Assembly: GCA_945882615.1 (NCBI GenBank)
Contig: CAMCWK010000005.1
Location: 62,001 to 126,000, forward strand
DNA: 64,000 nt
Source of the DNA: Rhizobium sp. Q54
GTDB taxonomy: Bacteria; Pseudomonadota; Alphaproteobacteria; Micropepsales; Micropepsaceae
Direction of reading: 5' to 3'
Made by a program: the position numbers and the translations under genes. Positions 5,880-9,883 of this stretch are shown in pieces. The notes under the pieces are model-generated. The model was not told where the DNA came from and did not search any database. It worked only from the letters and a program-made list of their open reading frames with translations. Positions within the stretch are counted from its first letter, which is position 1. Each line of letters begins with the position of its first letter.

Positions 5880-6131
5880 ATAGCCCCTGCTGCAAAACCC
5901 GCCGCCGTCGACGACCTGCCGTTCGAGGGCGCGCTCAAGGAGCTTGAGGCCATCGTCTCCCGGCTGGAGCAGGGCGAAGTGGATCTTGAGGATTCCATCG
6001 CGCTTTACGAACGCGGCCAGTTGCTGAAGGCCCATTGTGAGAAGAAACTTAAATCCGCCGAGGGCCGGCTGGAAAAGATCGTGATGGGTGCCGCTGGCCC
6101 CGAAATCGGCGAGACCATGGAAACCGCATGA
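5880..6131 (+). CDS. xseB: Exodeoxyribonuclease VII small subunit, apparent ATA start
   Basis: Small subunit of exonuclease VII, partner of XseA at 28.6-30.1 kb. The frame reads APAAKPAAVDDLPFEGALKE, then LEAIVSRLEQGEVDLEDSI, ALYERGQLLKAHCEKKL, a clear XseB domain, and stops at 6129-6131. The frame is open only from 5829, and no ATG, GTG, TTG or CTG occurs between there and the conserved region. The only candidate is ATA at 5880, seven bases after GGAG (5869-5872), just where an ATG would be expected. Either this is a rare AUA initiation or one base of the ATG differs in this sequence. The product would be 83 residues, normal for the family. dxs starts 34 bases downstream. Confidence 0.85.
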   Translation: MAPAAKPAAVDDLPFEGALKELEAIVSRLEQGEVDLEDSIALYERGQLLKAHCEKKLKSAEGRLEKIVMGAAGPEIGETMETA

Positions 6132-6165: not shown

Positions 6166-8103
6166 ATGAATATCCCGAACACCAAGACGCCCTTGCTGGA
6201 CCAGGTGGACCTGCCGGAAGACCTGCGCAAGCTGGAAAAGTGGCAGCTGCGCCAGTTCGCCGACGAGCTGCGCACCGACCTGATCGACATCGTCTCGGTC
6301 ACAGGCGGCCATTTTGGCGCCGGCCTTGGCGTGGTCGAACTCACCACCGCGCTGCACTATGTGTTCAAGACGCCGGACGACCGCGTCATCTGGGACGTCG
6401 GCCACCAGGCCTATCCGCACAAGATTCTCACCGGCCGCCGCAGCCGCATGCGCACCCTGCGCCAGGGCGGTGGGCTGTCGGGTTTCACCAAGCGCGCCGA
6501 AAGCGAATATGATCCGTTCGGCGCGGCCCATTCCTCGACCTCGATTTCCGCGGGTCTCGGCATGGCGGTGGCGCGCGATCTCAAGGGCGGTGACAACAAT
6601 GTCATCGCGGTGATCGGCGATGGTTCGATGAGTGCGGGCATGGCCTATGAGGCCATGAACAATGCCGGCGCCCACAAGAACCGGCTGATTGTCATCCTGA
6701 ACGACAATGACATGTCCATCGCCCCGCCGGTCGGCGCGATGAGCGCCTATCTGGCGCGTCTGGTGTCGTCGCGCCCCTATACCGGGCTGCGCAATGTCGC
6801 CAAGCGCCTGGCGCGCAAGATGCTGCCGCGCGCCTTGTTCAAGGTCGCCCAGCGCACCGAGGAATATGCCCGCGGCATGGCCATGGGCGGCACCCTGTTC
6901 GAGGAAATGGGCTTCTTCTATGTCGGTCCGATCGACGGCCACAATCTGTATCACCTGATCCCGGTGCTGGAGAATGTGCGCGACACCATGAAGGGTCCGG
7001 TGCTGGTGCATGTGGTGACCAAGAAGGGGCATGGTTATGCCCCCGCGGAAGCCGCGCCCGATAAGTATCACGCCGTCACCAAGTTCACGGTGCTGACGGG
7101 CGAACAGTCCAAATCGACGCCCAAGTCGCCCCAGTACCAGAAGGTGTTCGGCGAAGCCCTGATCGCGGAAGCCAAAAAGGACGACCGCATTGTTGCCATC
7201 ACCGCCGCCATGCCGTCGGGCACCGGCATCGACCTTTTCGAGAAAGCCTTCCCGACCCGCACCTTCGATGTCGGTATTGCCGAGCAGCATGGCGTGACCT
7301 TCGCGGCCGGCATGGCGACCGAAGGCATGAAGCCCTTCTGCGCCATCTATTCGACCTTCCTGCAACGCGCCTATGACCAGGTGGTGCACGATGTGGCGAT
7401 CCAGTCGCTGCCGGTGCGCTTCGCCATGGACCGTGCCGGTCTGGTGGGCGCCGATGGCTGCACCCATGCCGGTTCCTTCGACATTGCCTATCTGGCGACC
7501 CTGCCGAACTTCGTGATCATGGCCCCGTCGGACGAGGCGGAACTGACCCACATGGTCGCCACCGCCGCCCAGATCGACGACCGCCCCAGCGCCATCCGCT
7601 ATCCGCGCGGCGAAGGCACGGGCGTGGCGCGTCCCGCCGAGGGCATCCCGCTGGAGATCGGCAAGGGCCGCATCATCAAGGAAGGCGCCGGAATCGCCAT
7701 TCTCAATTTCGGCACCCGCATGACCCAGGTGTTGCTGGCAGCCGAGCGCATGGCCGGTTACGGCCTGTCGCCCACCATTGCCGATGCACGCTTTGCCAAG
7801 CCGCTCGATACCGACCTGATCCGCCGGCTGGCCAAGGAGCATGAAGTGCTGATCACCATCGAGGAAGGCGCCTCGGGCGGCTTCGGCGCCCATGTGATGC
7901 ACTTCCTGGCCCATGACGGTCTGCTCGACAAGGGCCTCAAGATCCGTCCCATGACCTTGCCGGATATCTTCCAGGACCATGACACGCCGGAAAAGATGTA
8001 TGCCCAGGCCGGTCTGGACGCCGATGGCATCGTCAATACCGCGCTGCGGGCGCTGGGACGTGGCGAGGAAGCGGTACGCGCCGCCGCCGGTAAGCTGGCC
8101 TGA
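6166..8103 (+). CDS. dxs: 1-deoxy-D-xylulose-5-phosphate synthase
   Basis: First enzyme of the MEP isoprenoid pathway: condenses pyruvate and glyceraldehyde 3-phosphate using thiamine diphosphate. At 645 residues it has full family length. Seen: [30 protein letters not shown], the ThDP motif [18 protein letters not shown], and in the pyrimidine-binding domain the catalytic Glu in [22 protein letters not shown] and the C-terminal transketolase domain are complete. It follows xseB, as in many proteobacteria, but no ispA lies between them and no tlyA follows. The stop overlaps the likely CTG start of the next gene (CTGA at 8100-8103). Confidence 0.97.
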
Positions 8104-9161
8104 ACCAAGTCTGCCGCCATTTCGGAACTTGCGGCGGCTGCTTGCTGCAAGACCTGACGCCTGACGAGTATCGCGCTGGCAAGCGCGCCGCAGTCCAGCA
8201 TGCGCTGATGCAGGCCGGCGTCAATGCCGAGGTGCTGGCGCCGATCATCGTGCCGCCCCAAAGCCGCCGCCGCGCGGTGTTCAAGGTCAAAAGCCTGGCG
8301 GAAGGTTTGCACATCGGCTTTCACGCCGCCCGATCTCACACCGTCATCGACATGCACCAGTGCGAGGTGCTGACGCCGGGGCTCTTTGCGTTGGTGGGAA
8401 AATTACGGGTGGCGCTGGAAAAGCTGATGGGCGTGGGCGAGGCGGCTGAGCTGCATGTCACCCAAACCGAAACCGGCTTCGACGCCGGCTTTCGCTGGAA
8501 GCGCAAGCTGACGCCGGCCCTGACCGGCGAACTGTCGCGTGCGCTCTTGGGCCTTGGCATCGCGCGGCTTACCCTGAACGAGGAAATCGTGTTCGAGACC
8601 GCCGTCCCGCGCGTGTCGCTGGGTGGGGCGCCAATGATCCTGCCGCCGCATGTCTTCCTGCAATCCACCGTCGAAGGTGAGAAAGCCCTGCAGGACCATG
8701 TGTTGAAGATTGTCGGCAAGGCCAAGCCTGTCGCCGATCTGTTCAGTGGCGTCGGCACCTTTGCCTTGCCGCTGGCCGCCAGGACCAAGGTCCATGCCGT
8801 GGAGCAGGACGGGCCCGCTTTGGCGGCGCTGGCCGAGGCCGCAAAAATGGTGGGCTTCAAGCCCGTGACCACCGAGAAGCGCGACCTGTTCAAACTGCCG
8901 CTGACGCCTGCCGAACTGAAGGGCTATGGCGCGGTGGTGCTGGATCCGCCCCGGGCCGGGGCCGAAGCCCAGGCCCGCCAATTGGCCAAATCCGCTGTTC
9001 CCATCATTGCTTACGTCTCCTGCGACGCCGCCACCTTCGCCCGCGATGCCGCCATTATGGTTCAGGGCGGTTACCGGCTGGGGCCGGTGACCCCGATAGA
9101 CCAATTCCTCTGGTCGTCGCATATTGAACTGGTTGCCGCATTTGTCAGGGACAAGGGATGA
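8100..9161 (+). CDS. Class I SAM-dependent rRNA (uracil-C5) methyltransferase, RlmCD/RumA-like, probable CTG start
   Basis: Iron-sulfur RNA m5U methyltransferase. Seen: SAM motif [22 protein letters not shown], and the catalytic Cys in [14 protein letters not shown]. The first standard start codon in frame is a TTG at 8142, but the bases before it encode [11 protein letters not shown], the conserved 4Fe-4S cysteine triplet; the fourth cysteine is in IDMHQCEVL. The frame is open from 8094, and its only plausible initiator is CTG at 8100, overlapping the dxs stop as CTGA. That start gives 353 residues with cysteines at 5, 11 and 14. Which rRNA position is modified cannot be read from the sequence. 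The stop overlaps the next gene as ATGA. Confidence 0.85.
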
Positions 9162-9883
9162 GACGCCTGCTGGTTCTGTTGGGTTTCCTGCTGCTGCCGC
9201 TTGCGGCACAGGCGCAGGCTGTGGACTTTTCCAGGTGGGCGGTGCTGGTCGTGGCCGGCGACAACCGGGCCTCCGAGAATGGCGGCCCCACCAAGGTGTT
9301 CGACAATGCCCGCAAGGAGCTGGTGAAGGTTTTCACCGGCCTGGGCTTTTCACCCGCCAACATCGAACAGTTCGCGGTCAATCAGGATGATAAAGCCCGC
9401 CCGGCCGAAATCGGCTCCATCGCCGGGGCGTTGTGGGACCTATCTGCCCGCGCCCCCGCCGGCTGCCTGATCTACTTCACCTCGCATGGCACGCCCGATG
9501 GCATTGGCGTGGGCAGCGCGGTGGTGTCGCCTGACAAGATGGCCGCCATGGTCAACAACAGCTGCGGCAGTAAGCCGGCGGTGATTGTGCTGTCGGCCTG
9601 CTATTCGGGCACCTTCGTGCCAGCGCTGGCGCGCGACAGCCGCATCATCATCACCGCGGCGCGGCCGGACCGCACCAGCTTCGGTTGCGGCGAGCTCGAT
9701 CAGTTCTCCTATTTTGACGACTGCTTTCTGCGGGCGGTTCCCAAGGCGGAAGATTTTGCCGGACTGGGCGGGCTGGTGCAGCAATGCGTGGCGTTCCGCG
9801 AACAGCAGATGAAGGCCGAACCGGCCTCCGAGCCGCAGGTCAGTATCGGGCCGAAAGTGGCGTTTACGCTGCGGTGGAAATAA
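9158..9883 (+). CDS. Exported peptidase C13 (legumain/caspase-fold)-like protein
   Basis: 241 residues. A signal peptide (residues 1-20, cleavage near AAQAQA) is followed by a single caspase-like domain: WAVLVVAGDN forms the first strand, the likely catalytic His is H110 in YFTSHGTPDG, and the likely nucleophile is C148 in VLSACYSGTF. This His-Cys spacing and context fit clan CD, family C13. Bacterial members are poorly characterised. The ATG shares ATGA with the preceding rRNA methyltransferase, so translation is probably coupled even though one product is cytoplasmic and this one exported. Substrate unknown; the N-terminal VFDNARKELVKVF segment resembles caspase-domain proteins more broadly. 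Confidence 0.75.
   Translation: MRRLLVLLGFLLLPLAAQAQAVDFSRWAVLVVAGDNRASENGGPTKVFDNARKELVKVFTGLGFSPANIEQFAVNQDDKARPAEIGSIAGALWDLSARAPAGCLIYFTSHGTPDGIGVGSAVVSPDKMAAMVNNSCGSKPAVIVLSACYSGTFVPALARDSRIIITAARPDRTSFGCGELDQFSYFDDCFLRAVPKAEDFAGLGGLVQQCVAFREQQMKAEPASEPQVSIGPKVAFTLRWK

Follow-up and report, generated by a model that had tools for sequence, protein, structure and literature searches.

Introduction

Neighbouring genes of one strand in which a start codon overlaps the stop codon of the gene before it (NTGA geometry) have been described as termination-reinitiation pairs (PMC6728339, PMC10666635), and the -4 overlap is given as the commonest coupled arrangement, in the form of ATGA or GTGA (PMC10666635). 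Here, we describe a junction of two neighbouring genes with the same geometry, likewise on one strand, but with CTG in place of ATG or GTG. It is located in a 64,000-nucleotide stretch of Rhizobium sp. Q54 (Micropepsaceae; GenBank assembly GCA_945882615.1, contig CAMCWK010000005.1, positions 62,001 to 126,000, forward strand; hereafter the window), where a CTGA overlap joins dxs, encoding 1-deoxy-D-xylulose-5-phosphate synthase, to the gene of an RlmD-like RNA (uracil-C5) methyltransferase that probably starts at this CTG (position 8100). The pairs of a TlyA-type gene (tlyA) and the methyltransferase gene found elsewhere in the same genus represent the ordinary case with ATGA, GTGA or TTGA.

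Initiation at CTG is already known in bacteria. CUG was cited to account for 0.024% of annotated starts and to yield 0.86% of AUG expression (PMC11497404). In Caulobacter, likewise an alphaproteobacterium, CTG made up 0.7% of the starts mapped genome-wide by ribosome profiling, and 75.4% of the genes had no Shine-Dalgarno (SD) sequence (PMC4117421). For the FIB rep gene of F-like plasmids, a CTG start was established by mutation (PMC11983097). As proposed here, CTG is used there rather than the downstream standard start which most FIB rep records annotate; however, FIB rep has a ribosome-binding site and mutational proof, whereas the window CTG overlaps a stop codon, has no strong SD and, unlike the Caulobacter starts, was deduced from sequence. 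The near-cognate starts of infC and sigR are kept in relatives, as is the CTG described here, and repression by initiation factor 3 (IF3) is documented for starts of the infC and sigR type (PMC5472188). As would be expected of a CTG-initiated bacterial gene, the methyltransferase gene encodes conserved protein sequence 5' of every standard start, with an in-frame CTG there. The kind of phenomenon seen at the dxs/methyltransferase CTGA is known, whereas its setting is new. A description of the junction was not found in the literature searched (open-licence papers only), and CTGA is absent from the main text of PMC6728339 and PMC10666635. Two candidate precedents were rejected, as the CTGA mentioned in PMC8876359 is a promoter hexamer and PMC4648390 concerns eukaryotic reinitiation. 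Two other papers retrieved on CTGA overlaps deal with a herpesvirus mRNA and with Anaplasma transformation.

The dxs/methyltransferase junction

The dxs gene (6166..8103, + strand; open reading frame (ORF) list; TIGR00204, 806.6 bits, above cut-off) ends with GCC (Ala) followed by TGA at 8101-8103 (GCC TGA, 8098-8103). The methyltransferase frame is shifted by -1 relative to dxs, opens after TAA at 8091-8093 and is terminated by TGA at 9159-9161. It begins with GCT GGC (8094..8099, +), the sole open-frame codons 5' of CTG (8100..8102, +), and continues with AAC CAA GTC to a first TGC (8112), with CGC CAT TTC GGA ACT to a second TGC (8130) and with GGC GGC to a third TGC (8139). TTG (8142..8144, +), the earliest standard start codon, follows directly 3' of the third Cys codon. 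From 8094 up to the third Cys codon, the frame contains no ATG, GTG or TTG, and CTG 8100 is the sole near-cognate codon of the CTG or ATN type ahead of the Cys cluster. It overlaps the dxs stop by 4 nt (CTGA, 8100..8103, +). The first-pass annotation of this DNA had reported a frame open back only to 8094, the lack of standard starts before the cysteines and the CTGA overlap, and the sequence agreed with it in all three respects. It had also pointed to ATGA and GTGA overlaps of other genes; these were seen again for neighbouring pairs in the window, including the methyltransferase gene's own end, which shares ATGA (9158..9161, +) with the gene that follows (9158-9883, encoding a C13/caspase-like peptidase; ORF list).

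Read from the CTG, the methyltransferase gene (8100..9161, +) encodes 353 amino acids. In profile searches, the best models were those of RlmD; RlmC and TrmA models matched too, and all scores stayed below the equivalog cut-offs (NF009639, 169 bits vs a cut-off of 458, profile positions 80-445 of 446; TIGR00479, 130.8 bits vs 183.55). PDB entry 1uwv (RumA) was matched with an E value of 9.3e-36, and the methyltransferase gave a single match in its genome. As it scored under the curated cut-offs, the protein was classed as RlmD-like within the TrmA superfamily. The earlier label 'rRNA methyltransferase' was borne out only in part, by the RlmD, RlmC and TrmA matches with their scores below the equivalog cut-offs; 23S rRNA U1939 is a putative target that we infer. 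The three cluster cysteines (C5-x5-C11-x2-C14; 8112..8141, +) aligned with CPHFGVCGGC of RumA (1uwv). Cys88 (codon 8361..8363, +) aligned with a later Cys of RumA, which we take to be the fourth cluster ligand there. The C-x5-C-x2-C motif and distal Cys of RlmD/RumA are present in the window protein (Cys 5, 11, 14 and 88), whereas their N-terminal TRAM-type extension is not, with NF009639 being matched from position 80 only.

A TRAM-like N-terminal extension (judged by eye) of 53-66 residues ahead of the first Cys was observed in L071, L073, L076 and L078; in L073, L076 and L078, which belong to other genera, it comprised 58-66 residues. It was missing from the window protein and from most of the genus.

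Conservation of the junction in related genomes

Initially, 61 genomes were searched, 47 of which gave a match, and then 96 genomes of the family, 82 of which gave a match; within the genus, 61 of 69 genomes matched. Junctions were parsed at 79 loci, comprising 58 from the same genus, 10 from other genera in the family and 11 from other families. L047 (weak match only), L061 (contig begins inside the gene) and L063 (first Cys not located; match 630 bases past the dxs stop) were dropped before counting, and matches from other genera of the family in G062, G068, G070, G072, G074, G075, G109, G111, G113, G117 and G119 were left out.

A standard start was present before the cysteines at 72 of the 79 loci, within the genus mostly 2-4 codons ahead of the first Cys. 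The other seven (the window, L002, L003, L007, L048, L053 and L072), all of the same genus (7/58), were without ATG, GTG or TTG in the open frame 5' of the first Cys. In all seven, the dxs TGA was overlapped by a CTG located equally far from the Cys (-11), and CTG-AAY-CAR-NNC-TGY was common to them. Since the upstream frame was open for 40-66 codons in five of the seven, the missing standard starts are not due to lack of room, and the pattern goes beyond what chance would produce. Relatives were also checked for a conserved alternative upstream start: none was found in the seven genomes sharing the junction, in all of which CTG-AAY-CAR was kept. This conservation supports the first-pass view of CTG 8100 as the only reasonable initiator, and we estimate the probability that it is the methyltransferase start at roughly 0.86.

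A start at TTG 8142 would yield a shorter protein missing the three iron-sulfur cysteines, as had been pointed out previously and was verified here. It is the first standard start of the frame, and callers restricted to ATG, GTG and TTG would presumably pick it and trim the three cluster cysteines from the enzyme. However, the six remaining CTGA genomes have CTG, TCG or GCG at the corresponding position, and their next standard start is located 18-31 codons past the CTG, beyond the three cysteines. Furthermore, the cysteines upstream of it are kept, and codons 2-14 (from the CTG to the TTG 8142 position) showed a synonymous proportion (pS) of 0.472, a nonsynonymous proportion (pN) of 0.114 and a pN/pS of 0.24 in 6 genomes (L003, nearly identical to L002, was omitted), which is the pattern expected for a translated stretch. 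With a standard start also present ahead of the cysteines at 72 of the 79 parsed loci, initiation at TTG 8142 was rejected as very unlikely.

Assembly or sequencing errors, or decay of the gene, were considered as well. The assemblies are at draft level, with 20-390 contigs, and the L072 copy (G100) is split mid-gene by a frameshift, with two tblastn pieces in different frames (56% and 74% identity). Against this, the junction is common to seven separately assembled genomes, and the frames, intact in six CTGA genomes, were 65-79% identical to the window protein. We give this explanation next to no credence.

Origin of the CTGA junction

Within the genus, dxs and the methyltransferase gene are separated by a TlyA-type gene at 31 loci. 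Its TGA overlapped the methyltransferase start by 4 nt at 28 of the 31 (15 GTGA, 12 ATGA, 1 TTGA), and at 18 of those 28 the overlap was found at the distance of CTGA from the cysteines (-11). TIGR00478 scored above cut-off in 33 of the 69 genus genomes and in no member of the 16-genome clade containing the CTGA cases. Loss of tlyA would have put the dxs stop where the tlyA stop had been, and the start codon would have taken its first base from the end of dxs (GCC|TGA), with C resulting in CTG. Two further genomes without tlyA above cut-off had a TTGA start overlap after dxs GCT|TGA (L066) and a GTGA start overlap after dxs GCG|TGA (L059). C, T and G yield CTG (window), TTG (L066) and GTG (L059), respectively, so the start codon of the downstream gene seems to be set by the fourfold degenerate base with which dxs ends. 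Based on these comparisons, the CTGA junction quite probably originated by tlyA loss, with the deletion event itself being presumed. This suggests that a start codon could change without mutation of its gene, once the upstream neighbour disappears and the gene that takes its place contributes its last base as the first base.

tlyA was apparently lost more than once in the genus, and the resulting junctions vary between CTGA, TTGA, GTGA, a longer overlap (L017) and a gap.

The clade of 16 holding all CTGA cases was recovered with a Shimodaira-Hasegawa-like approximate likelihood ratio (SH-aLRT) value of 99 in a larger tree, built from the 79 parsed rows except for 12 (L032, L036-L046), and with bootstrap/SH-aLRT values of 96/91 in a smaller tree of 24. 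Eight members without overlap had ATG (5), GTG (2) or TTG (1) at a distance of 3-4 codons from the Cys. The dxs stop and the first Cys were 49-431 bases apart in seven of them, and in L005 the dxs end was off the contig. In the sixteenth member, L050, the CTG was lost; its dxs stop is TAG, one base shorter, and ATG and GTG are located upstream in the new frame. The dxs stop was TGA in 7/7 CTGA cases vs 2/8 of the others in which the contig includes the dxs end (one-sided Fisher test without regard to relatedness, p 0.0056). Within the clade, a 4-nt overlap with the dxs TGA occurred only together with CTG. The clade represents a natural experiment on the need for start codons at overlaps, with CTG at the overlap (7/7) and ATG, GTG or TTG without it (8 members).

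Palindromic repeat-like inserts (judged by eye) were present between dxs and the methyltransferase gene in L004, L006, L008, L049, L051 and L052. L049 and L051 shared closely similar 105-base inserts, yet were placed apart on the gene tree.

Translation of the methyltransferase gene

In the proposed mechanism, ribosomes ending dxs at the UGA (8101-8103) would step back one base and re-initiate on the overlapping CUG with initiator tRNA (termination-reinitiation). The methyltransferase gene would be translationally coupled to dxs, and neither a standard start nor a strong SD would be needed. Coupling to dxs translation is likely, with indirect support from the retention of the overlap and of the TGA and from weak SD energies; the CTG is presumed to be used in vivo. 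Six of the seven CTGA genomes had SD energies of -2.7 to -4.1 kcal/mol. The seventh, L007, had an SD-like site (-7.6 kcal/mol), which would fit initiation at the CTG de novo or via an internal promoter, independent of dxs termination, as would the SD-preceded CTG conserved in rsfS of the genus (24/24 loci; see below). With weak energies in the other six genomes and the 4-nt dxs overlap confined to CTG in the clade of 16, we consider such independent initiation unlikely.

Alternatively, a -1 ribosomal shift at the dxs end would produce a Dxs-methyltransferase fusion and make a start codon unnecessary. The methyltransferase frame is indeed -1 to dxs and open across the junction. However, no slippery heptamer was seen at the junction by eye, and the -1 frame is shut at 8091 in the window and at the corresponding codon in L007, which leaves a slip window of just a few codons. 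In addition, the tlyA stop is overlapped by a standard start at or close to this position in 28 relatives (18 at -11). A fusion by frameshifting is highly improbable.

No strong RNA structure was detected at the junction (fold z -0.67). A special initiator tRNA was rejected: the initiator-tRNA pattern matched 58 of the 69 genus genomes, including six of the seven CTGA genomes (no match in G001), and the best match in each of these 58 had the anticodon stem CAGG/CCTG. As the stem is shared by CTGA and ATG genomes, it explains nothing clade-specific. A second initiator-tRNA copy in G013 reads TAGG.

Several points weigh against a coupled CTG start with the origin proposed above. The output of CUG is 0.86% of that of AUG, as cited in PMC11497404. 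In E. coli, IF3 and the initiator-tRNA features required for de novo starts are of importance for re-initiation as well (PMC2268962), so the overlap need not relax start-codon scrutiny. The same paper reports that re-initiation without an SD is reduced by excess IF3, and cites initiation at non-canonical codons after stops upon loss of ribosome recycling factor (RRF). A conserved strong SD was not found in the CTG group (mean -3.7 vs -2.7 kcal/mol at random sites). The pN/pS was obtained from 6 genomes with 15 non-independent pairs, and the 13-codon stretch does not stand out as coding by codon usage alone (score -3.7), possibly owing to its short length and many cysteines. The frameshift in L072 counts here as well. 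Four of the 16 clade assemblies are only 58-86% complete, which makes the absence of tlyA there weaker evidence. GCC is the last dxs codon also in 6/8 other clade members; as it is usual there too, selection for the base C itself was not demonstrated. Finally, grouping of the seven CTGA genomes as one clade was rejected on the gene tree (approximately unbiased test, p 3.6e-9), and several losses or several gains are therefore needed. A single origin with several losses seems more likely to us than repeated gain, because the geometry is identical in all seven.

CTGA overlaps and near-cognate starts elsewhere in the genome

As a control, the window and 20 further stretches were analysed, together 464 kb of the 2.85 Mb genome. 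In-frame 4-nt overlaps between predicted genes had ATG in 28 cases, GTG in 12, TTG in 3 and CTG in 6. In the five other CTGA cases, four of which were inspected individually, a standard start followed 1-17 codons on, and scores of -7.8 to 1.2 for the codons in between indicated little or no coding signal. Only one of the six CTGA overlaps is needed as a start, so CTGA is common and a needed CTGA is not; with the methyltransferase gene as the only case in the 464 kb, a frequent need of CTGA starts was rejected.

Near-cognate starts are likely, from sequence comparisons, for four other genes of the genome, namely xseB (ATA), infC (ATA), lysR (CTG) and rsfS (CTG). The lysR and rsfS cases were found by a scan for coding signal before the first standard start. 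xseB (exonuclease VII small subunit; 5880-6131, +; NF002139, 87 bits, above cut-off) is located just upstream of dxs. It has no ATG, GTG or TTG ahead of its core, and its ATA 5880 is preceded by CTGGAGACGAGCC. At 30 xseB loci of the genus (L213-L242), an SD-preceded ATT (17), an SD-preceded ATA (3) or ATG (10) was found; in nine of the 17 ATT loci, a standard codon was also present no more than 30 codons from the core. infC is a known near-cognate case elsewhere (PMC5472188). Among eight infC loci (L281-L288), ATA followed GAGAGAGTC or GAGAAAGTC in the seven with codons displayed, and some frames also contained GTG or TTG upstream of the ATA. In the LysR-type gene (L197:4142-5029, G000:C3, - strand), the CTG follows directly after a TAG and aligned with ATG (L269, L273), GTG (L268, L270) or TTG (L271) at the same residue (L267-L273).

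rsfS (ribosome silencing factor; L204:16196-16720, G000:C11, - strand) has an SD-preceded in-frame CTG, which was found at 24 of 24 genus loci (L243-L266). In a codon control, the next best codon was CCC, just before the CTG (12/24); GCC reached 6/24 though eight times commoner. At 53 further loci (L289-L341; 6 of the genus, 47 others), the SD-preceded in-frame codon was CTG in 28 and ATA in 10. Among these 53, a class-wide subset of 28 loci, drawn from the best-scoring 30 of 106 matches, had SD-preceded CTG, ATA, ATC or ATT in 18 cases, none in 9 and SD-preceded ATG in 1. A near-cognate rsfS start is possibly class-wide; since many of the further loci also hold a standard start, the pattern is no more than suggestive. 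As RsfS begins with a lysine/alanine-rich tail, the CTG is indispensable only in genes that have no standard start ahead of the core (judged by length, L246 and L249).

As a tentative and rather doubtful extension, near-cognate starts in Alphaproteobacteria might, rather than being stray errors, form a small conserved set (infC, rsfS, xseB and, by gene loss, the methyltransferase gene) that includes ribosome-acting genes. They would be sensed by IF3, with output rising as initiation stringency falls; RsfS would be a second homeostat besides IF3, and genes with a stop/start overlap would no longer require a standard start. The pattern seen for rsfS, xseB, infC and lysR makes near-cognate starts in the class directly testable.

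The peptidase gene downstream of the methyltransferase gene (9158-9883, +) encodes a C13/caspase-like protein (PF01650, 55.4 bits), the N-terminus of which appeared signal-like by eye.

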